A stretch of DNA of 45,826 nucleotides from Rhodospirillales bacterium (GTDB lineage Bacteria > Pseudomonadota > Alphaproteobacteria > BOG-932 > Roseiterribacteraceae), in NCBI GenBank assembly GCA_028291345.1, contig JAQGIF010000237.1, positions 1-45,826 on the forward strand, read 5' to 3'. Shown piece by piece: positions 7,110 through 38,286 of the stretch (its first letter is position 1; every line of letters begins with the position of its first letter). The notes below the pieces were generated by a model. That model was not told the DNA's origin. It was given only the letters and a program-made list of their open reading frames with translations, and made no database searches. Made by a program: the position numbers and the translations under genes.

Positions 7110-8507
7110 TTAGGACGGCCCGATCATGTCTTCCGGTTTCACCCAGGCGTCGAACTGCTCGGCCGTCAAAAGGCCAAGAGCCTCGGCGGCCTGCAGCAGG
7201 GTAGTGCCTTCGGCATGGGCTTTCTTGGCCACCTTCGCGGCATTGTCATAGCCGATATGGGGGTTCAGCGCGGTGACCAGCATCAGGCTTTCATAGAGCA
7301 GCTTGTTGATGCGCTCCTCATTAGCGGTGATGCCAACCAGGCAGTTGCGGGTGAAGCTATCGGCGGCGTCGGCCAGCAGGCGGATCGACTGAAGAACGTT
7401 GTAGATGATGACCGGCTTGAAGACATTCAGCTCGAAATGGCCCGTCGCGCCCGCCACCGTCACTGTCACATGATTGCCCATCACCTGGGCCGCCACCATC
7501 GTCATTGCTTCAGACTGCGTCGGGTTGACCTTGCCAGGCATGATCGAGGATCCCGGCTCGTTCTCCGGCAAGTTCAGCTCGCCGATACCGCAGCGCGGGC
7601 CTGAGCCCAGCAGGCGGATATCGTTGGCGATCTTCATGAAAGACGCGGCCAGTGTATTCAGCACGCCCGAAACCTCGACCAGCGCGTCATGCGCGGCCAA
7701 AGCCTCGAACTTGTTCTCAGCGGTGACGAAGGGCAGCCCAGTGATCGACGCGACTTCCTCGGCAAATTTCTCAGCGAATCCCTTTCGGGCGTTGAGGCCG
7801 GTGCCGACGGCGGTGCCACCCTGGGCCAATTGCAGCAGGCGCGGCAGGGCGCTCTTGACCCGGGCGATGCTGTATTTGGCCTGGGTCGCATAGCCGGAGA
7901 ATTCCTGCCCTAGGGTCAGCGGCGTCGCGTCCTGCAGATGAGTGCGGCCGATCTTGACGATATGCTGGAATTCGTCCGACTTGGCCTGCAGTGCACCATG
8001 CAGCAATTCCAGCGCCGGCAGCAGCCGCCGCTCGATCTCCTCGACCGCCGCGATATGCATGGCGGCGGGGAAGCTATCGTTCGACGACTGGCCCATATTG
8101 ACATGATCGTTGGGATGGATCGGCTTCTTCGACCCGATCTCGCCGCCCAGCAGCTCGATGGCGCGGTTCGAGATCACCTCGTTGGCATTCATGTTGGTCT
8201 GGGTGCCGGAACCGGTCTGCCACACGACCAGCGGGAACTCCTCGGCCATCGTGCCGTCGATCACCTCGGTCGCCGCCTGAACGATCGCTGCGCCCAGCTT
8301 CGCGTCCAGCACGCCCAGTGCCATGTTGGCTTGCGCCGAGGCACGCTTCTGGATGCCCAGCGCGCGAACGAGGGCAGGCGGCATCCGCTCGCCGCCGATC
8401 TTGAAATTCTGCAGCGAGCGCTGCGTCTGCGCACCCCAATAGCGGTCGGAGGGAACCTCCACCTTGCCCATGGAGTCGCTTTCGATGCGGAAGCCGGCGT
8501 CTATCAT
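7110..8507 (-). CDS. fumC: Class II fumarate hydratase
   Basis: A 465-residue enzyme of the fumarase/aspartase superfamily that interconverts fumarate and L-malate in the TCA cycle; the class II form has no iron-sulfur cluster. The superfamily signature [11 protein letters not shown] is at about residues 316-326, with [13 protein letters not shown] near 100 and the active-site [10 protein letters not shown] near 188. Length is normal for FumC. The ATG at 8507 gives the standard start [14 protein letters not shown]. It is followed closely by the RHH gene, so the two are probably co-transcribed. Upstream lies a 270-base intergenic region holding a repeat element. Confidence 0.97.
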
Positions 8508-26299: not shown

Positions 26300-27241
26300 C
26301 TAGCGCTGGTCGAACTTTAGTTCGATGCGGCGGTTATGGGCCAACGCATCGTCGCCGGTTCCCGGGTCCACCGGCTGATATTCGGCGAAGCCCGCGGCGG
26401 CCAGCCGGCTCGCGGGCACACCCTGCTGAATGAGATATTCGACGACAGCGGTCGCACGGGCGGTGGACAGTTCCCAATTGCTGGGAAACATCTCCGTATG
26501 GATCGACAATCTGTCGGTATGGCCATCGACGCGCAGCACCCAATTGACGTTGTCCGGGATCGTTTTGGCGATATCGTTCAGCGTACTGGCCAGCTTGGCC
26601 AGCTGCGCCTTGCCGTTGTCCCCCAATGTCGCGGACGCTGATGGGAACAGCACCTCCGACTGGAATATGAAACGGTCGCCGACGATGCGGATGTCGCTTC
26701 GGTTGCCCAGAACCTCGCGCAGCCGCCCAAAAAACTCCGATCGGTAACGCGCAAGCTCGGTAACCTTTGCCGATAGCGCCAGGTTCAGCTTCTGGCTCAG
26801 CTCGCTGATCGTCGCTGTCTGCTCCTGGGTCTTGGCATCGGCCTGGCCCAGCGCATTGTTCAGCCGTTGCAATTCCGCCGTCAGGTCGGCGATCTGCTGC
26901 GACAGCGCCTGCACCTGGCTGAGCGACACATTCACCGATTCGTTGGCCTTGTCACGTTCGGCGGTCAGTGATTCCAACTGTGCAGTGATGCTGTCGATCT
27001 TGGCCCGCTGCGTAACGCCGGCCTCCCGCTCTTTTCCCAGCATCTGGTTCAGTTCGAGAATCCGCCGGTTGAGCTCGACGAGCGACCGGTCCTTGCCGAC
27101 CAGCTGCTGCTGCAGGAACGCCTGGGCGATGACGAAGACCATCAGCACGAACATGACGACGATGATGAGCGACGATAGGCCGTCGACCCATCCTGGCCAG
27201 ACATTCAGTTCCGTGCGGTACCCGCGTCGCGACAGGGCCAT
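26300..27241 (-). CDS. MotB/OmpA-domain peptidoglycan-binding stator-like protein
   Basis: A 313-residue protein with a MotB layout: short cytoplasmic N-terminus, one transmembrane helix (about residues 22-44) with Asp20 in WPGWVDGL at its edge where MotB carries the proton-binding aspartate, a long coiled coil (about 48-150), and an OmpA-like domain (about 185-313). The peptidoglycan residues in DGHTDRLSIHT and LSTARATAVVEYL are present. The coiled coil is longer than in MotB. It lies three bases after the MotA/TolQ-type gene and should pair with it as an ion channel. No flagellar, Tol or Exb genes are nearby. Confidence 0.82.
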   Translation of the reverse strand: MALSRRGYRTELNVWPGWVDGLSSLIIVVMFVLMVFVIAQAFLQQQLVGKDRSLVELNRRILELNQMLGKEREAGVTQRAKIDSITAQLESLTAERDKANESVNVSLSQVQALSQQIADLTAELQRLNNALGQADAKTQEQTATISELSQKLNLALSAKVTELARYRSEFFGRLREVLGNRSDIRIVGDRFIFQSEVLFPSASATLGDNGKAQLAKLASTLNDIAKTIPDNVNWVLRVDGHTDRLSIHTEMFPSNWELSTARATAVVEYLIQQGVPASRLAAAGFAEYQPVDPGTGDDALAHNRRIELKFDQR

Positions 27242-27243
27242 GA

Positions 27244-28389
27244 TCAGGCGCCGGATTGTTCGTCGGCGAAGATTCCGATCGTGCGTGCGAGCCGCTTGAT
27301 CTCGTTCCGTGCTTCTTCCAGCGCTTCTACCCGCGACTGGCTCTGCTCTTCCGCCACCCGGTTGATGCCGGCTTCGATGGCCTTCAGATGGGCGCGCACT
27401 GCTTCGCCGCCGCCTAACTCGCCGGCGTCGAGCGCCTGATCGACCTTGTTCAGCAGACCGACCAGGGTGGCGTCAGTCTCCACCCTCTGGGTGAGCATGG
27501 CATGGGCGATCCTTTGCGCGTCCTGCTGGGCGACGACCAGCCCTTCTATCCGGTCGGCCAGGGCCTGCAAGGCGAGCGTGATCTCCTGTCGGCCATATTC
27601 CGTCTCCGCCATGATCTGCCGGAACTGATCGATATTGCCGGCGGTCTTCTCGACCAGGGCCTGAATTTCCGGCAACGGCGAGCTTTCGTCGCTCGTGCCG
27701 CGATCGCCGGCCGAGGCGAACAGCCAGTTCTCCAGGTCGACGAAGAAGCGGTTCTGCGCCTGCCCCATCTGGAGGTCGAGGAAGCCCAGCACCAGCGAAC
27801 CGGCCAGCCCGAGCAGCGACGAGCCGAACGCCGTCCCCATGCCGACCAGCGGCCCTTGTAGACCAGCTTTCAGCGTCGTGAACAACTCGGTCGGGTCGGC
27901 GGTGACTGACAGGCCGTTGACTACGGCGCCGACCGACCCCACGGTCTGGAGCAGTCCCCAGAACGTGCCAAGCAATCCCAGGAAAATCATCAGCCCGATG
28001 AAATAGCGCGCGATTTCCCGGCTCTCGTCGAGCCGTACCGCGATACCGTCAAGAACGGCGCGCAATGCCGTCGGTGTTAGCATCAGGGGCGTCTTTCGGC
28101 CCTCCATAAGCCGCGCCAGCGAGCCCATCAGCGGCGGCGGATCCAGTTCGATAACCGCCTGTCGGCTGCGCTGAACCTCGCGAACCCACCTGATCTCAGG
28201 CGACAGGCGCAGGGTTTGCACGAAGATATAGATGATGCCGATGAGCCAGACGGCGATCAACACCGCATTCAGCAGGGGGTTGGCGAGAAAGGCGCTTTCA
28301 AGCCGGACAATCAGCCACGCCGCGACGCCCGCGACCGCGAGGAGAAAAATCGTCATCGACGCTAAATAGCGGGAGAGGCGCATTGGCAT
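27244..28389 (-). CDS. MotA/TolQ/ExbB-type proton channel protein
   Basis: A 381-residue membrane protein. Hydrophobic helices lie at about 10-28 and 40-60, then 128-146 and 170-196; the latter pair contains GLLGTFWGLLQTVGSVGAV and GMGTAFGSSLLGLAGSLVLGF, the MotA/TolQ/ExbB core. Residues from about 225 form a long cytoplasmic tail with predicted coiled coil, much longer than in ExbB or TolQ. With the MotB-like partner it probably forms a 5:2-type proton-driven unit. It is 29 bases downstream of an OmpA-like gene. Confidence 0.82.
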   Translation of the reverse strand: MPMRLSRYLASMTIFLLAVAGVAAWLIVRLESAFLANPLLNAVLIAVWLIGIIYIFVQTLRLSPEIRWVREVQRSRQAVIELDPPPLMGSLARLMEGRKTPLMLTPTALRAVLDGIAVRLDESREIARYFIGLMIFLGLLGTFWGLLQTVGSVGAVVNGLSVTADPTELFTTLKAGLQGPLVGMGTAFGSSLLGLAGSLVLGFLDLQMGQAQNRFFVDLENWLFASAGDRGTSDESSPLPEIQALVEKTAGNIDQFRQIMAETEYGRQEITLALQALADRIEGLVVAQQDAQRIAHAMLTQRVETDATLVGLLNKVDQALDAGELGGGEAVRAHLKAIEAGINRVAEEQSQSRVEALEEARNEIKRLARTIGIFADEQSGA

Positions 28390-28418
28390 GTCCTCGTGGT
28401 GATGACGCTGACCTCACG

Positions 28419-29084
28419 TCAGCGTTCTATATACAGTTCGACCCGATCCGCGTTCAACTCGGTTGGCAACGAGATCAGCGGCCGGCCGTCGATTCGGTCG
28501 TCACCGACCCCATTGCGCGTCAAGAAATCGCGGATGGCGAGAAACCGCGCGAGGGACAGGCGGTGTGCGGAACTTTCGCTGTGCGGCTTGCTCGGCGAAA
28601 ATGTCCTGACCTCCAGCCTGGCGGTTTTGTTCTGAATCATTTCCTTGGCGAGGTTCGCCAATTTGCTTTGCGCCGCCGCGGACATATGGCTGGCACCGGG
28701 ATCGACGATGAACATCGCTTCTTCGATCTGCGCGGCGGCGTTGCCGGGGCTGACGATGGGCGGGGCGGCGGTCATTAGGCCTGACTTCGGTGCCGGTATG
28801 GGATCGGTTGGGTCGGCCGAGGTAATCGCGGCTTGGGGCGGTATCGGCAACCGATCTAATTCGGCGGCGTCGGGCATGCCCATGACGGGGCGGGCCGGCG
28901 GAGCCAGTGATGGAAGACTGAGTCTTGGAGTGGGACCCAGTTGGGGTGGCGCCGGAATCGGCGGCGTCGGGATTGGTGCGGGCGTGCCAACAGCCTGCGC
29001 CCAGGCAGCTGGCATCCAGACGGCAGGCGCGCTTATCATGGCCAGGAGCGCGAGGGTGAGACCTGTTATGGCGGGCCTGTTCAC
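28419..29084 (-). CDS. Secreted OmpA-like protein with proline-rich linker
   Basis: A 221-residue protein starting at a GTG (29082-29084). A signal peptide ending around AWAQA is followed by a Pro/Ala-rich segment (about 32-70) and a C-terminal OmpA-like domain (about 120-221) with VDPGASHMSAAAQSKLANLA and HRLSLARFLAIRDFL. The Asp that binds peptidoglycan in OmpA-type domains is replaced by Ser in RTFSPSKP, while the following Arg helix is kept. It may therefore bind differently. It sits between suhB and the MotA/MotB-like pair with very short gaps and is likely a third periplasmic part of that unit. Confidence 0.68.
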   Translation of the reverse strand: MNRPAITGLTLALLAMISAPAVWMPAAWAQAVGTPAPIPTPPIPAPPQLGPTPRLSLPSLAPPARPVMGMPDAAELDRLPIPPQAAITSADPTDPIPAPKSGLMTAAPPIVSPGNAAAQIEEAMFIVDPGASHMSAAAQSKLANLAKEMIQNKTARLEVRTFSPSKPHSESSAHRLSLARFLAIRDFLTRNGVGDDRIDGRPLISLPTELNADRVELYIER

Positions 29085-29088
29085 GCTG

Positions 29089-29931
29089 TTACCCGCGTGC
29101 TGCCTTCGCACCCGGCGCGCTGCCGGACGCCTTATCGTTGGCGCGGCGCAGCAAATCGCCGAGCGGGCGGCCCAGTTCGGCATTAGCGGCCAGGATCGAC
29201 GAGCCGAAGACCGGGTTGGTCCCGCCACCGACTTCACGGACGAATCCGCCCGCTTCGGTCACCAGGATCAGGCCCGCCGCGGTATCCCAAGGCGACAGGC
29301 CATATTCCCAGAAGCCATCGAACCGTCCGGCGGCGACATAAGCGAGGTCCAGTGCGGCGGAGCCAAAGCGGCGCACGCCGGCGACCTCGCCCATTACCAG
29401 ATCGAGCTCGGCCGTGTAGTTCGGTCCGGATGCGCGGCCCTTGAAGGGCATGCCGGTGGCGATCATCGCGACCTCGAGCGAGCGGCGCCCGGAAACCCGC
29501 AGCCGTGTCGAATTCATGAACGCTCCCTGGCCGCGCTCCGCCCAGAACAGCTCGTTCTTGACCGGGTCATAAACGATGCCGGCTACGATCGCCCCGTCGG
29601 TTTCCGCCGCGATCGAGATCGCCCAATGCGGTACGCCGTGTAGGAAGTTGGTGGTGCCGTCCAGCGGATCGACGATCCAGCGGCTTCGCGCGTTTGCTGG
29701 TCCGCCTTTCCCGCTTTCCTCCATCAGCCAGCCGAAATCCGGCCGTGACTTGGACAGTTCGGTGCGAATGGCTTTTTCGGCCGCCAGGTCGGCGGAACTG
29801 ACGAAATCGGCTGGTCCCTTCTTCGAGACCTGCAACTGTTCTACCTCGCCGAAGTCGCGGACGAGGGTTCGGGCAGCCTTTTCGGCAGCGCGGACCATGA
29901 CATTGATAAGGGCTGAACGCGAACCGGCCAA
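29089..29931 (-). CDS. suhB: Inositol monophosphatase family protein
   Basis: A 280-residue magnesium-dependent sugar phosphatase. The family motifs are WIVDPLDGTTNFLHGVPH near residue 85 (metal-binding Asp residues) and GSAALDLAYVAAGRFDGFWEYGLSPWDTAAG near 190. It starts at 29931, six bases after the efp stop, so both are probably on one transcript. SuhB proteins hydrolyse inositol phosphates, and in enterobacteria SuhB also acts in rRNA transcription antitermination. Length is slightly above average because of a C-terminal Ala/Lys tail. Confidence 0.92.
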   Translation of the reverse strand: MAGSRSALINVMVRAAEKAARTLVRDFGEVEQLQVSKKGPADFVSSADLAAEKAIRTELSKSRPDFGWLMEESGKGGPANARSRWIVDPLDGTTNFLHGVPHWAISIAAETDGAIVAGIVYDPVKNELFWAERGQGAFMNSTRLRVSGRRSLEVAMIATGMPFKGRASGPNYTAELDLVMGEVAGVRRFGSAALDLAYVAAGRFDGFWEYGLSPWDTAAGLILVTEAGGFVREVGGGTNPVFGSSILAANAELGRPLGDLLRRANDKASGSAPGAKAARG

Positions 29932-29936
29932 AAGAT

Positions 29937-30503
29937 TTAATCCTTCGCGCGTTCGACGTAGGACCCGTCTTCGGTCTTCACCACGATGCGCGTACCGGCG
30001 CCGATGAAGGGCGGGACGCTGGTCTTGACGCCGTTCGACAGCAGAGCCGGTTTATAGGAGGACGAGGCGGTCTGCCCCTTTACCACGGCATCGGCTTCGG
30101 TGATTTCCAGTATGACAGTGTCGGGGATCGAAACCGCGAGCGGCTGTCCCTCATAGGTCTTGATCGAACACATCATGCCGTCCTGCAGGAAGGCGGCCGG
30201 ATAGCCGATGATGTCCCGCGGGATGCTGATCTGTTCGAAGGTTTCCTGATTCATGAAGGTGAAGCTGTCGCCTTCGGAATAGAGGAACGAATATTCCGAT
30301 TCGTCCAAATTCACCCGTTCAACCGTTTCCTGGGTGCGATAACGCACATTGGTCTTATTGCCAGACCGCAGGTCGCGCATCTCGACCTGGACGACGGATG
30401 CGCCTTTGCCCGGGTTGAAAATTTCGCTCTTCAGCACGACCCAAAGCTTGTTGTCTTGTTCCAGCACATTGCCGGAGCGGACTGTAATCGCCGCTACTTT
30501 CAT
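29937..30503 (-). CDS. efp: Translation elongation factor P
   Basis: A 188-residue EF-P that relieves ribosome stalling at polyproline. Three beta-barrel domains are visible. The modification loop reads NPGKGASVV with Lys33 at its tip, the type of lysine loop that EpmA beta-lysylates in E. coli; a matching epmA lies divergently at 31433. The signature near residues 150-170 includes PPFIGAGTRIVVKTEDGSYVERA. The ATG at 30501-30503 overlaps the stop of a five-codon minicistron. The proline-rich OmpA-like protein in the same operon could be an EF-P client, which is inference. Confidence 0.96.
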   Translation of the reverse strand: MKVAAITVRSGNVLEQDNKLWVVLKSEIFNPGKGASVVQVEMRDLRSGNKTNVRYRTQETVERVNLDESEYSFLYSEGDSFTFMNQETFEQISIPRDIIGYPAAFLQDGMMCSIKTYEGQPLAVSIPDTVILEITEADAVVKGQTASSSYKPALLSNGVKTSVPPFIGAGTRIVVKTEDGSYVERAKD

Positions 30504-30731: not shown

Positions 30732-31436
30732 ATGGCCGACCTATCCAGCATATTCGACCGCACCGGCGCCGTAAGACGCCCCGATTATGCACAATTATTG
30801 CACGAATTGGGCGCGTTGCTGAACAGTCGGCCCGAGCCGCCGCCATTCGCCACCTTACCGAACGGGCGAGGACAGGTCGCATTGGTCCTGCCGGGATTTC
30901 TGACCAGCGATCTTCTCACTTTGTCCTTGCGTCAGTTCCTCACCGCGCAGGGCTTCCGCCCGTTTGGCTGGCAGCATGGCGTCAATGTCGGGCCGACGAC
31001 CAGCGCGCTGCTGCATCTGCGCGACCGTGTGCGGGCGCTATCCGATTTGAACGACGGCCCGATCGCGGTGATCGGCGTCAGCCTCGGCGGCCTGCTCGCG
31101 CGGGATCTGGCCTATGATTGTCCCGAACGCATCCGGCATGTCGTCACCCTGGCCAGCCCGTTTCGTCTGCCGACCGCGAGCACATTCGAACCGCTTGTCC
31201 GCATGTGCGGCCCGCTCTTCGACGCCGAACTCAATATCGCCCGGCTATCGACGCCGCTGCCGATGCCCTCGACCGCCTTCTTCACCCGCGACGATGGTGT
31301 GGTGGCTTGGGAAAGCTGCCGGTCGGACGATCCGGACTGTGCCAATTTCGAGGTCACCGGCCGCCATATGACGATCTGCCGCAACCCGGAGGTATTGACG
31401 CAAATCGTGCACGCGCTGGCGAAAGACGTTCGATGA
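30732..31436 (+). CDS. Alpha/beta hydrolase
   Basis: A 234-residue hydrolase-fold protein. VLPGF near residue 52 forms the oxyanion region, GVSLGG at 115-120 holds the nucleophile Ser117, and His in GRHMTICRNP near 218 is the probable catalytic base. FTRDDGVVAW near 188 is the usual position of the acid. The fold resembles lipase-like/PGAP1-type esterases. The start is the ATG at 30732. Its TGA overlaps the epmA ATG (ATGA), so the two are translated together. Substrate unknown. Confidence 0.82.
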   Translation: MADLSSIFDRTGAVRRPDYAQLLHELGALLNSRPEPPPFATLPNGRGQVALVLPGFLTSDLLTLSLRQFLTAQGFRPFGWQHGVNVGPTTSALLHLRDRVRALSDLNDGPIAVIGVSLGGLLARDLAYDCPERIRHVVTLASPFRLPTASTFEPLVRMCGPLFDAELNIARLSTPLPMPSTAFFTRDDGVVAWESCRSDDPDCANFEVTGRHMTICRNPEVLTQIVHALAKDVR

Positions 31437-32473
31437 GTTCCGTTGCGCCACCCTGGTGGCGTCCCGACATCTTTGCCCGCCGGCGCCCGATGCTGGAACT
31501 CCGCTCCCGGCTGACCGCCGCCACGCGCGGCTTCTTCGCCGAACGCGAGTTCCTGGAGGTCGAGACGCCGGCCCTGCAGATTAGCCCGGGGCTTGAGCCG
31601 CATCTGATGGCCTTTGTCACCGAACTGGTCGCCGCCGACCAGCAATCGGCGCAGCCGCTGTATCTGCACACATCGCCCGAATTCGCGATGAAGAAGCTCC
31701 TGGCGGCCGGCCTGCCGAGAATCTTCCAGCTGGCCCATGTCTTCCGCAATGGTGAGCGTGCTTCGACCCACCATCCCGAATTCACCATGCTCGAATGGTA
31801 TCGCCCCGGCCATTATGACGGCGTGATCGCCGACACCACCGCCTTGATGCATGCGCTCGCCGCCGTGGCGGGCAATGCCAAGGTGACCTGGCGCGGCCTC
31901 GCCTGCGATCTCGCTGCCGAACCGGAGCTGCTGACCGTCCAGGACGCGTTCGCCCGTCATGCCGGCGGCATCGATTTACTGGCAACGGTCGGCGACATGG
32001 GCGCGTTGATTGCCGAGGCGCGCCGCATTGGCGTTAGGGTTGATGCGGGGGATCGCTGGGACGATCTGGTCCTGCGCATTCTCGCCGAACGGCTCGAGCC
32101 GCATCTGGGGGCGGGGCGTCCGACGTTCCTGGTCGAATATCCGGTCGAGATGGCCGCCTTGGCGCAGGTCAAGCCCGGTAATGCCCAAGTGGCCGAGCGG
32201 GTCGAACTCTATATCTCGGGTGTCGAAATCGCCAACGGCTTCGGCGAACTGACAGACGCCGAGGAGCAGCGCCGCCGCTTCACCGCCGACATGGATTTGA
32301 AGGAAGGACTATACGGCACGCGCTATCCGATCGACGAGGAATTCCTCGCGGCCCTGGCGCACGGCATTCCCGAAAGCGCCGGGATAGCTTTGGGCTTTGA
32401 CCGGCTGGTTATGCTGTTGGCAGGCGCCGATCATATCGAAGAGGTCTTATGGGCGCCTGTCACGCGTGAATGA
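31433..32473 (+). CDS. epmA: EF-P--(R)-beta-lysine ligase
   Basis: A 346-residue paralogue of the class II lysyl-tRNA synthetase catalytic core, without the anticodon-binding domain. Motif 2 is seen in FRNGERASTHHPEFTMLEWY near residue 103 and motif 3 in GIALGFDRLVMLL near 315; PALQISPGLEPHL near 45 is typical of EpmA/GenX. It attaches beta-lysine to the EF-P loop lysine. Start is the ATG at 31433 overlapping the hydrolase stop. efp lies 930 bases away on the opposite strand. No epmB (lysine 2,3-aminomutase) occurs in the window. Confidence 0.94.
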   Translation: MSSVAPPWWRPDIFARRRPMLELRSRLTAATRGFFAEREFLEVETPALQISPGLEPHLMAFVTELVAADQQSAQPLYLHTSPEFAMKKLLAAGLPRIFQLAHVFRNGERASTHHPEFTMLEWYRPGHYDGVIADTTALMHALAAVAGNAKVTWRGLACDLAAEPELLTVQDAFARHAGGIDLLATVGDMGALIAEARRIGVRVDAGDRWDDLVLRILAERLEPHLGAGRPTFLVEYPVEMAALAQVKPGNAQVAERVELYISGVEIANGFGELTDAEEQRRRFTADMDLKEGLYGTRYPIDEEFLAALAHGIPESAGIALGFDRLVMLLAGADHIEEVLWAPVTRE

Positions 32474-36618: not shown

Positions 36619-38286
36619 TTAACGTCGGCACCATTCTACCAATGTTAACGACCCGCGATATCGCACGAGACGTCTTAATAGTGGCACCGCGATCGGCACC
36701 TCGAAAGAAAACAGGCCTTCCCCGTCGACACTTTCGAACGCGTTCGACCTTGGCGCCAGCGATCTCGGCAGGACCAATTTTCCGAGACGCCATCCCACCA
36801 CGCGCATGGTCAGCCCTCGCGGTTCAGCCTCGACGGCCACGTCGAAAGTGAATGGGCCGAAACTCTCGGTAATTCTGGCTCTTCCGGATGGGGCAAGCCG
36901 GCTCCGGAGTCGCCGACCGCCAAAATCACGCTCCCAGGTCTCGGTCCCGTCGGGATGAAGACGCATCATAACCCGCACGCCCACGTGCTCGCTCGCTGCT
37001 GGAAATCCGAACAGCCGCGCAAAAAGGACCCCTATCCGGGATTGCGCACCCTCGACCTGCGCAGTCCCGACAAGCCATGCCGTCGGTCCCGCACGATGAA
37101 CCGCCTTTACGGCGTCTGGCAGCAGGTCGAAGCTATCGCCGAGCGCAACCTCCAAGGGTGTCCTGCGCTGGCTCGTAGTGGTCGCGGTCTGGATTCGGTG
37201 GCGGGAAAACTCAGCTCCGATGAGCTCCAAAGACAATAGGCCGGCTCCCGTATGGGCGCCGGCTGGAATGGCGCCCCGCTGGTTTACCAGCACGCGAACC
37301 AGGGCGAGCGCGGGCAATGTCGGCACAAATGGGCCGTCACCGGCTTCCGCCACCAGGCTCCAGCCGGCGAAAACGGGCATCCCTTGCGCATCCCGCCCCG
37401 CCGCCTCTATCATCATGCCTCCGCGGTCCGTCCCGAATGGCTTGAATGCATCCGCGAAATATCGAGCCGCGGGCGCCAAAGGTGAGAGGCTGCGGATACT
37501 GCTAAATTCTGTGAACCACGCCAAAACGACAAGCCCATAATGTAGGATGCCGAGTTCCAGCCCGGCGCGAAACAAGGCGGAATCGCGCGGTTTGAAGCGG
37601 GCTTCCAAAAGGTCGAGGTCGGGTGTTTCGGCCAGGGCGAGTCTCCGGTCGCCAAGGTCGCCGATGCGCCGGCTCACCGTACCCGACCAGCCTCGGCGTG
37701 AAATCCAAGAGCCGCCTGAGAAAATACGGATCGGTTGCCCGGCCCATGCAAGGATGGCGCTGACAACCGAGAGGCCCCGAGGCGCGCGATTTCCCGTAGA
37801 TATGCCGACCTCGATCCGGTCGATCCGCCGCCAGCCGGCGGTAAGGCTATCGAGTACGGCGTGGGAGAGGGCGGGTGTCGAACTCATGCCGGTAACGGCG
37901 ACCGCTCCGGTTGCCTTGGCGGCGGCGTCCAGCATGGGGAAGCGCGCGACAAAGTCGCGGGCATCGGCAAGATCGATATAGTCGCATCCTGCTTCTATGG
38001 TCGTCTCTGCGAGGCGCGGTTCGGCCCCCTGGAAGGGTCCGGCCGCGTCGATAACGACGGCCGCGTTCAGCGCGTGAATATCGATGGGTGTCACGGACCG
38101 GGCATCGATTGTCGCTGTTTCTATCCGTGCCGCCGGATAGCGCTTACGAACCGCGCCCGCCGCTGCTTCACATCGGCTTGGATCGCGACCGGAGATAATG
38201 ATGCAGAAGTCGGTGGTTGCGACCAATCCGTCGACGAGGCGAGAACCGAACACGCCGGTTCCGCCCACTACGAGAATCCGCGTCAC
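36619..38286 (-). CDS. Saccharopine-dehydrogenase-like protein with DUF4166 domain
   Basis: A 555-residue two-domain protein. The N-terminal Rossmann half opens with ILVVGGTGVFGSRLVDGL and has AGPFQGAEPRLAETTIEAGCDYIDLAD near 85-110, as in saccharopine-reductase-like proteins. The C-terminal 200 residues include AEHVGVRVMM-type ExHVGV and RLHPDGTETWERDFGGRRLRS, the DUF4166 pattern. The reaction is unknown. Its start overlaps the stop of the DCC-family gene (ATGA), so the pair is translationally coupled. Confidence 0.8.
   Translation of the reverse strand: MTRILVVGGTGVFGSRLVDGLVATTDFCIIISGRDPSRCEAAAGAVRKRYPAARIETATIDARSVTPIDIHALNAAVVIDAAGPFQGAEPRLAETTIEAGCDYIDLADARDFVARFPMLDAAAKATGAVAVTGMSSTPALSHAVLDSLTAGWRRIDRIEVGISTGNRAPRGLSVVSAILAWAGQPIRIFSGGSWISRRGWSGTVSRRIGDLGDRRLALAETPDLDLLEARFKPRDSALFRAGLELGILHYGLVVLAWFTEFSSIRSLSPLAPAARYFADAFKPFGTDRGGMMIEAAGRDAQGMPVFAGWSLVAEAGDGPFVPTLPALALVRVLVNQRGAIPAGAHTGAGLLSLELIGAEFSRHRIQTATTTSQRRTPLEVALGDSFDLLPDAVKAVHRAGPTAWLVGTAQVEGAQSRIGVLFARLFGFPAASEHVGVRVMMRLHPDGTETWERDFGGRRLRSRLAPSGRARITESFGPFTFDVAVEAEPRGLTMRVVGWRLGKLVLPRSLAPRSNAFESVDGEGLFSFEVPIAVPLLRRLVRYRGSLTLVEWCRR

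Follow-up and report, generated by a model that had tools for sequence, protein, structure and literature searches.

A candidate ion-driven envelope motor pair in an old, conserved locus of Alphaproteobacteria

A stretch of 45,826 nucleotides from a Rhodospirillales bacterium (assembly GCA_028291345.1, contig JAQGIF010000237.1), hereafter called the window, raises the question of what two stator-like membrane proteins, here termed A and B, might be doing in a locus shared with efp and suhB. Five genes follow one another on its minus strand in the order efp, suhB, PROX (encoding a secreted proline-rich protein), A and B, separated, by open reading frame (ORF) calls, by 2-29 bases (efp-suhB 5, suhB-PROX 4, PROX-A 29, A-B 2). 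The original prediction, made from the letters of the DNA, had described this layout, which proves real; its gaps of 29 and 4 bases stand, while the A-B gap is 2 rather than the 3 it gave. It had also proposed a stator-like, proton-driven envelope machine; a machine that is probably ion-driven is supported, and gains from the conserved Asp20 of B, the pore threonines of A and the OmpA residues of B. Our leading answer, tentative and a little short of an even chance, is that A-B would be a 5:2 ion-driven motor with a housekeeping role in the alphaproteobacterial envelope, distinct from TolQR and ExbBD. The family is already catalogued (NF006543/PRK09039); what appears new, judged from sequence, is the pairing of an OmpA-bearing B with a putative ExbB/TolQ/ZorA-type A. 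The two proteins and their parts are as follows.

26300..27241, minus strand: B, a MotB/ZorB-type protein of 313 amino acids (aa), family NF006543 (PRK09039.1-2; NCBIfam 402.9 bits, Pfam OmpA 61.3 bits).
26330..26647, minus strand: OmpA peptidoglycan-binding domain of B, with Asp243, Asn255 and Arg262 (PF00691; all three residues in 36/36 aligned sequences).
26717..27109, minus strand: coiled-coil-like linker of B, residues 45-175 (from a Pro-free run of 140 residues).
27113..27184, minus strand: membrane helix of B with Asp20, motif WPGxVD (hydropathy; Asp20 in 36/36 aligned sequences).
27244..28389, minus strand: A, a MotA/TolQ/ExbB/ZorA-type protein of 381 aa (fold matches on a low-confidence model; PADLOC ZorA1 38.9 bits).
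27247..27714, minus strand: predicted cytoplasmic helical tail of A, residues 226-381.
27832..27966, minus strand: pore region of A, from Thr142 (GTFWG) to Thr186 (GMGTAF), assigned by residue conservation.

The B subunit is the better defined of the two. It exceeds the NF006543 cut-off ("peptidoglycan -binding protein", 305 bits), and its OmpA domain is complete, well above the Pfam cut-off of 27.2 bits. Hydropathy reveals a single hydrophobic segment, residues 25-43, directly after Asp20, and the WPGxVD-type motif recurs in 85 of 88 B frames (the frames of relatives run from stop to stop, such that their lengths include upstream residues). The Asp at the membrane edge, the long coiled coil (here a Pro-free, coiled-coil-like linker) and the complete OmpA domain that the original prediction had seen in a MotB-type protein are all present, with conservation drawn from an alignment (A2) that omits the loci L057 and L061. 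Linker length, estimated at 133-624 aa in the 83 of 92 loci where it could be measured, speaks against a fixed ruler.

A carries four hydrophobic segments (residues about 10-28, 39-57, 126-153 and 186-204) and, behind them, a helical tail some 155 residues long. Eleven Arg/Lys lie within the 68 residues between the second and third segments, and one within the 32 between the third and fourth; under the positive-inside rule, which governs the orientation of membrane proteins, this distribution would place both ends of A in the cytoplasm. Members of the MotA/TolQ/ExbB channel superfamily carry pore threonines in membrane segments three and four, and the presumed pore threonines of A are retained in 34/34 (Thr142) and 32/34 (Thr186) aligned sequences (alignment A1, which omits 7 of 40 relatives: L042, L043, L050, L051, L056, L057 and L061). 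In a VIA-align search with the modelled membrane part, ExbB, TolQ and ZorA chains filled rows 1-20 (Z 10.7-12.2, 181-204 residues aligned), while MotA and PomA came later, at Z about 9. The same families lead in Foldseek, with probabilities of 0.91-1.00 among the 50 matches listed. The fold, putatively a channel of the ExbB/TolQ/ZorA kind, is of low to moderate confidence, and the residue evidence and the profile links of A weigh as much as it does.

Is A-B then simply a Tol or Exb system under another guise? Its predicted channel fold does resemble those of TolQ (Z up to 11.8) and ExbB (Z 12.2), and the envelope setting is shared with Tol-Pal. TolR is short and has no OmpA domain. Elsewhere in this genome lie a separate TolQRA-like set (L002) and an ExbB-like gene with two ExbD-like genes (L001), both named from ORF reading, and for this reason A-B was rejected as a TolQR or ExbBD orthologue. 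HHalign of A1 against the two other channels of this genome gave a weak match, with a probability of 17.8. Beside A-B, neither tolA, tolB nor pal was found among the 24 window proteins scanned; the Pfam scan of these proteins, part of which was taken only to E 1e-5, returned no Tol, Exb or flagellar match beyond A's own weak MotA_ExbB hit. The original prediction had reported no flagellar, Tol, Exb, ZorC or ZorD genes here, which agrees with the window proteins scanned (24 with Pfam, 13 with PADLOC), and none of the proteins tested from the TolQR, ExbBD, Zorya or flagellar systems showed orthology. Another comparison is with the "generic ion transporters" delineated, in the available part of their study, by Puente-Lelievre et al. 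(PMC12505986). A shares with these the short stretch between segments 2 and 3 and the ExbB/TolQ-like fold; however, generic, non-flagellar B subunits are described there as lacking an OmpA-type domain, whereas this B has a complete one. The database entries for NF006543/PRK09039 and for the "MotA/TolQ/ExbB proton channel family protein" describe the same family, the pair being so annotated in Sinorhizobium meliloti Ak57. No difference from the window pair was seen, and the names give no function.

A search of 59 relatives, the window's own genome among them, found A in 39, and B exceeds its cut-off in 121 of 192 genomes of the class, 186 of which yield some match when other OmpA proteins are counted. 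Among the matches listed for 299 Pseudomonadota genomes, those of A at E <= 1e-50 come from 79 genomes, 74 within the class and five outside it (G266, G326, G350, G337, G416). In three strong loci outside the class (L075-L077) A and B adjoin, with no match to efp, suhB or PROX. The remaining 26 from outside the class are weak, none being better than 1.7e-15, and 15 of them, again among those listed, lie in frames of about 700-1100 aa, a ZorA-like length. The other 11 weak matches listed occupy frames of about 280-380 aa in one non-class family (f158, including L088), possibly another short relative of A. The original prediction had called for a survey across Sphingomonadales, but an origin there is not supported, and the nearest named relative found is a Rhodospirillales metagenome-assembled genome (L033, A 74% identical). 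The pair also persists in some very small genomes. Of the nine genomes of up to 1.0 Mb in the B search, six have a strong B. In five of these (G103, G129, G073, G172 and G192, of 0.7-1.0 Mb) A is present as well, whereas the sixth, G126, lacks it. Each of the five holds one other MotA/ExbB-type channel. These six were chosen for a closer look on the strength of their known B.

Across 45 loci, with neighbours named from our own reading of the sequences, a recurrent order emerges: GAPDH (10 loci), pgk (11), fba (11), thiE (19), efp (29), suhB (31), PROX (29), A (45), B (42), an ABC transporter (26, mostly on the other strand) and rpmE (20). In S. meliloti Ak57, tkt-gap-pgk-fba and rpmE-ABC-B-A-suhB-sel1-thiE lie within one stretch, and the window likewise carries a transketolase, GAPDH and an ABC gene, together with rpmE and a small heat-shock protein recognised by eye. 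Of the 92 A loci, 88 have a match to B, 60 to suhB, 50 to efp, 45 to PROX and 15 to a Sel1-repeat gene; L033 shares its contig with L036 and was not counted, and short contigs may cause PROX, efp, suhB or B to be missed. When the 13 loci picked by B (L122-L134) are set aside, B accompanies A in 75 of the 79 loci picked by A, and in 67 of the 69 of at least 8 kb. The neighbourhood survey that the original prediction called for thus finds its linkage to efp and suhB conserved in relatives, both in the 45-locus clusters and in the 92 loci. Such recurrent order bespeaks vertical inheritance of an old locus, in which neighbours with other jobs are to be expected, and linkage to efp and suhB therefore tells little about function. 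The A-B pair is old, widespread across Alphaproteobacteria, vertically inherited and usually found in one place. In one divergent locus (L078:5593-8133) the order is unusual: the A frame is long, a B-like frame precedes it and efp follows.

How might such a pair work? While gene order, conservation, residues and distribution are directly established, we infer the 5:2 assembly, ion flow, rotation and peptidoglycan binding from relatives. By this analogy, five A subunits would ring two B helices in the inner membrane. Ions passing between Asp20 of B and the ring of A threonines would turn or shift B, whose long coiled coil would transmit this movement to an OmpA domain anchored in peptidoglycan. 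The motor might then exert force on, or sense, the peptidoglycan layer during envelope growth, with PROX, or a periplasmic RgsF-type Sel1 protein in other lineages, as putative adaptors in the same compartment. Both the envelope-growth role and any contact with PROX or RgsF are weakly supported.

The suggestion of RgsF comes from loci at least 8 kb long: 15 of 82 have a Sel1-repeat gene on the strand of A, no more than about 5.1 kb upstream of it. Scored against the S. meliloti Ak57 protein, it reaches at least 285 bits in seven loci (the query's own included) and 84-154 bits in the other eight. The Ak57 protein itself (381 aa, Pfam Sel1 101.3 bits, signal-like start) is encoded directly before suhB-A-B. 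As far as the available portions of the studies go, RgsF (SMc03995) is a periplasmic TPR/Sel1 protein recovered together with TolQ and TolR in pull-downs of RgsA; its signal lies at the growing pole and the septum and is in part diffuse, and it could not be deleted and upon depletion yields short, round cells (Krol et al., PMC7327166). A transposon-sequencing study, likewise available in part, classes smc03995 as essential, as confirmed by targeted knock-out (PMC5929573). With tkt2 given as SMc03978 (PMC9611204, in the part available), counting from tkt2 puts the Ak57 Sel1 gene 16 annotated genes on, one short of the 17 expected for SMc03995, a difference that a single unlisted gene would explain. 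By this count and the matching description, the Ak57 Sel1 gene is likely SMc03995/RgsF, though the identity is unproven. Gene count also makes SMc03993 a possible A subunit, an unverified assignment; the envelope regulator ChvI binds a 256-bp fragment inside SMc03993, according to the accessible text of PMC3687685. Conceivably, a further rotary motor besides Tol and Exb might drive or time peptidoglycan insertion at growth zones through a rotating anchored arm, its periplasmic partners being PROX or Sel1 proteins of the RgsF type; we regard this sharper version of the motor reading as doubtful.

A number of observations weigh against the motor and the links just drawn. Window A falls below the Pfam MotA_ExbB (PF01618) cut-off (15.3 vs 22.9), which is reached at the A position in 9 of 25 A-bearing genomes. 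Its structure model is weak, with a mean predicted local distance difference test score (pLDDT) of 55 and a predicted template modelling score (pTM) of 0.42. A designed helical bundle stands in the VIA-align list at Z 10.5, above MotA, and the method itself warns that helical bundles may reach Z 13 by chance; the best Foldseek match has an E of 5.8e-03, none being below 0.001. When the PDB was searched by sequence with the A profile, most matches were helical or coiled-coil proteins and MotA, ExbB, TolQ and ZorA were not among them; the membrane part alone gave three unrelated matches. A was not found in ten near-complete genomes of 2.5-4.6 Mb (G016, G029, G042, G068, G141, G168, G318, G338, G356 and G378), one weak, tail-only match is all that G008 offers, and a strong B is missing from three of the nine smallest genomes. 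Given these absences, the candidate motor is widespread, not universal. The link to RgsF rests on gene order in other families, with no Sel1 match at the window's locus and a best score of 56 bits elsewhere in its genome; moreover, SMc03994 is given as the ribosomal S21 gene in the available part of PMC9611204, which conflicts with the gene count. Finally, no experiment on A or B was found in a literature search that did not extend to supplements and could not use the slashed family name. In the parts available, an Agrobacterium motility screen (PMC9812332) mentions neither ExbB, TolQ, proton channel, OmpA nor suhB, the CenKR paper (PMC9275681) neither MotA, proton channel, OmpA nor suhB, and PMC12204202 has nothing on the A-B family.

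The chief rival keeps the housekeeping setting and changes the direction of information flow. ZorAB has been proposed to signal inward through its tail. By extension, A-B could be a trans-envelope sensor rather than a defence system, in which B reads peptidoglycan and the A tail relays rotation or strain to a cytoplasmic partner. Congruent with this, A has its predicted cytoplasmic helical tail, its nearest defence-library profiles are ZorA1 and ZorA3 (up to 38.9 bits), with ZorB3 at 80.4 bits for B (PADLOC), and A1 aligns with a ZorA-like protein of 855 aa. However, the tail is estimated at fewer than 90 residues in 9 of the 74 loci (out of 92) where it could be measured, and is therefore not essential to the family; nor did a conserved cytoplasmic partner stand out beside A-B in the 45-locus clusters. 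A tail that is short in some relatives disfavours the sensor, which we consider unlikely as against the motor.

A different possibility is that PROX belongs to the machine. The gene and its neighbours on the efp side read as follows.

28419..29084, minus strand: PROX, a secreted Pro-rich protein of 221 aa with a GTG start (translation; family alignment A3, n=31).
28425..28727, minus strand: OmpA-like domain of PROX lacking the peptidoglycan Asp (AlphaFold, Foldseek, alignment A3).
29089..29931, minus strand: suhB, inositol monophosphatase family (Pfam 207 bits), a linked neighbour for which motor membership is not shown; its start is TTG as listed, the real start possibly being different.
29937..30503, minus strand: efp, elongation factor P, a linked neighbour (NCBIfam NF001810 228.8 bits vs cut-off 161).

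PROX has a signal-like N-terminus and 25 Pro within residues 31-115. Its C-terminal domain lies just below the Pfam OmpA cut-off (24.5 vs 27.2), and AlphaFold gives a confident OmpA-like model for residues 121-221 (block pLDDT 76-94). At E <= 0.001 Foldseek finds 99 similar PDB chains, OprF, OmpA, Pal and MotB domains among them, the best with an E of 3.2e-07, and the A3 profile, from which L045 was left out, recovers the same families by sequence. The model and alignment thereby uphold the earlier description of a secreted, Pro-rich, OmpA-like protein with an altered peptidoglycan Asp. The column of the GHTD Asp was chosen by eye, as the HHalign alignment, at a probability of 95.9, is not clean in this loop. 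Asp occurs there in one of 31 sequences (L048 only) and is absent in the window; no G[HQ]T[DC] motif occurs in any of the 31, and the later Arg (A3 position 66) is kept in all of them. The changed Asp, on the strength of this alignment, is a feature of the PROX family as such. An Asp four columns further on, present in 14 of 31, could in principle replace it. By eye, a VxV[DN]xxxL motif follows the signal peptide in many relatives (e.g. L034, L038, L049, L141), with or without A-B, and is eroded in the window; it may be a docking segment.

The original prediction had grouped A, B and PROX as a three-protein module, and part of that grouping holds: A and B form a pair. PROX sits between suhB and A wherever both are labelled, and its match in 45 of 92 A loci (44 of them sound, the match in L078 being the B-like frame itself) favours its membership. 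Yet PROX is unmatched in the other 47, some of which end at contig edges. Conversely, when 35 genomes were searched with both profiles, PROX reached at least 50 bits in 13 of the 28 without a true A match. Seven of these 28 (G006, G020, G024, G026, G034, G049, G051) are less than 90% complete, such that some absences of A may be gaps. Of the 13 places, 12 were covered (G020 being the thirteenth): PROX directly follows suhB in eight (L135, L136, L139, L140, L141, L143, L145, L146), follows efp with no suhB labelled in L137, sits at a contig end in L138 and L144, and lies elsewhere in L142. From its staying beside suhB or efp without A, PROX may have a job of its own. That A-B occurs without PROX and PROX without A makes A-B a stable unit and PROX a separable one, and an obligate module of three was rejected on these counts.

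The same evidence makes it improbable that A, B and PROX constitute one obligate machine whose Pro-rich part depends on EF-P. Window PROX contains no PPP, which occurs in 13 of 25 full-length PROX sequences, and efp and suhB remain together in 17 loci lacking PROX. The earlier hint that EF-P is needed to translate PROX is correspondingly weak, and EF-P dependence was set aside as the cause of the linkage. Close to efp, on the plus strand (31433-32473), the window carries a class-II lysyl-tRNA-synthetase-like gene (Pfam tRNA-synt_2), which we take to be EpmA-like; similar-looking synthetase genes adjoin efp, by eye, in several relatives without A-B. The nearby gene suggests that EF-P is lysylated in this genome. 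Elsewhere in the window (36619-38286, minus strand), a saccharopine-dehydrogenase NADP domain is fused to DUF4166.

Zorya is the defence system that A-B most recalls, as both combine an ExbB/TolQ-like channel bearing a cytoplasmic helical tail with a B that has a full OmpA domain, and PADLOC, run on 13 window proteins, labels A and B as distant ZorA and ZorB, amid coiled-coil cross-matches and a mad3/mad8 match on the ABC transporter. A Zorya-derived defence system is nonetheless very improbable here. The A tail measures about 155 aa, and less in some relatives; the pair occupies a conserved housekeeping locus across much of the class and is kept in the five A-bearing genomes of 0.7-1.0 Mb described above; and A scores 18.4 bits against the NCBIfam ZorA profile, whose cut-off is 500. 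No ZorC, ZorD or ZorE was matched among ten further window proteins (PADLOC), nor were Zorya partner genes noticed, by eye, in the conserved clusters of the 45 loci. On the low ZorA score and the lack of a ZorC/D match among the window proteins scanned, the candidate was rejected. Outside the class, one locus (L087:5159-7726) encodes the ZorA-like protein of 855 aa mentioned above, aligning with A1 over 330 columns at E 7e-12, with a MotB/OmpA-like match downstream (7954-8322).

MotA has four segments and MotB an OmpA domain, as do A and B, the latter with a transmembrane Asp besides, but an unusual flagellar stator is scarcely credible, given that the modelled fold of A matches ExbB, TolQ and ZorA better than MotA and PomA, that FliG exceeds its cut-off in 13 of 25 A-bearing genomes, and that it has no match in the window's genome (G000, 97% complete), which excludes this candidate here unless FliG lies within the missing 3%.

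The motor reading, tentative as it is, matters because 5:2 motors driven by ions form a small group, whose known members each do a different job. Next to the Tol and Exb motors, A-B looks like one more with a housekeeping role in the envelope, and it is retained in five genomes of 0.7-1.0 Mb with a single other channel of this type. It would unite an ExbB/TolQ/ZorA-type channel with a full OmpA anchor, a domain that generic, non-flagellar B subunits lack according to the available part of PMC12505986. Should the possible link to RgsF hold, a role in polar cell-wall growth would be directly testable in Sinorhizobium.

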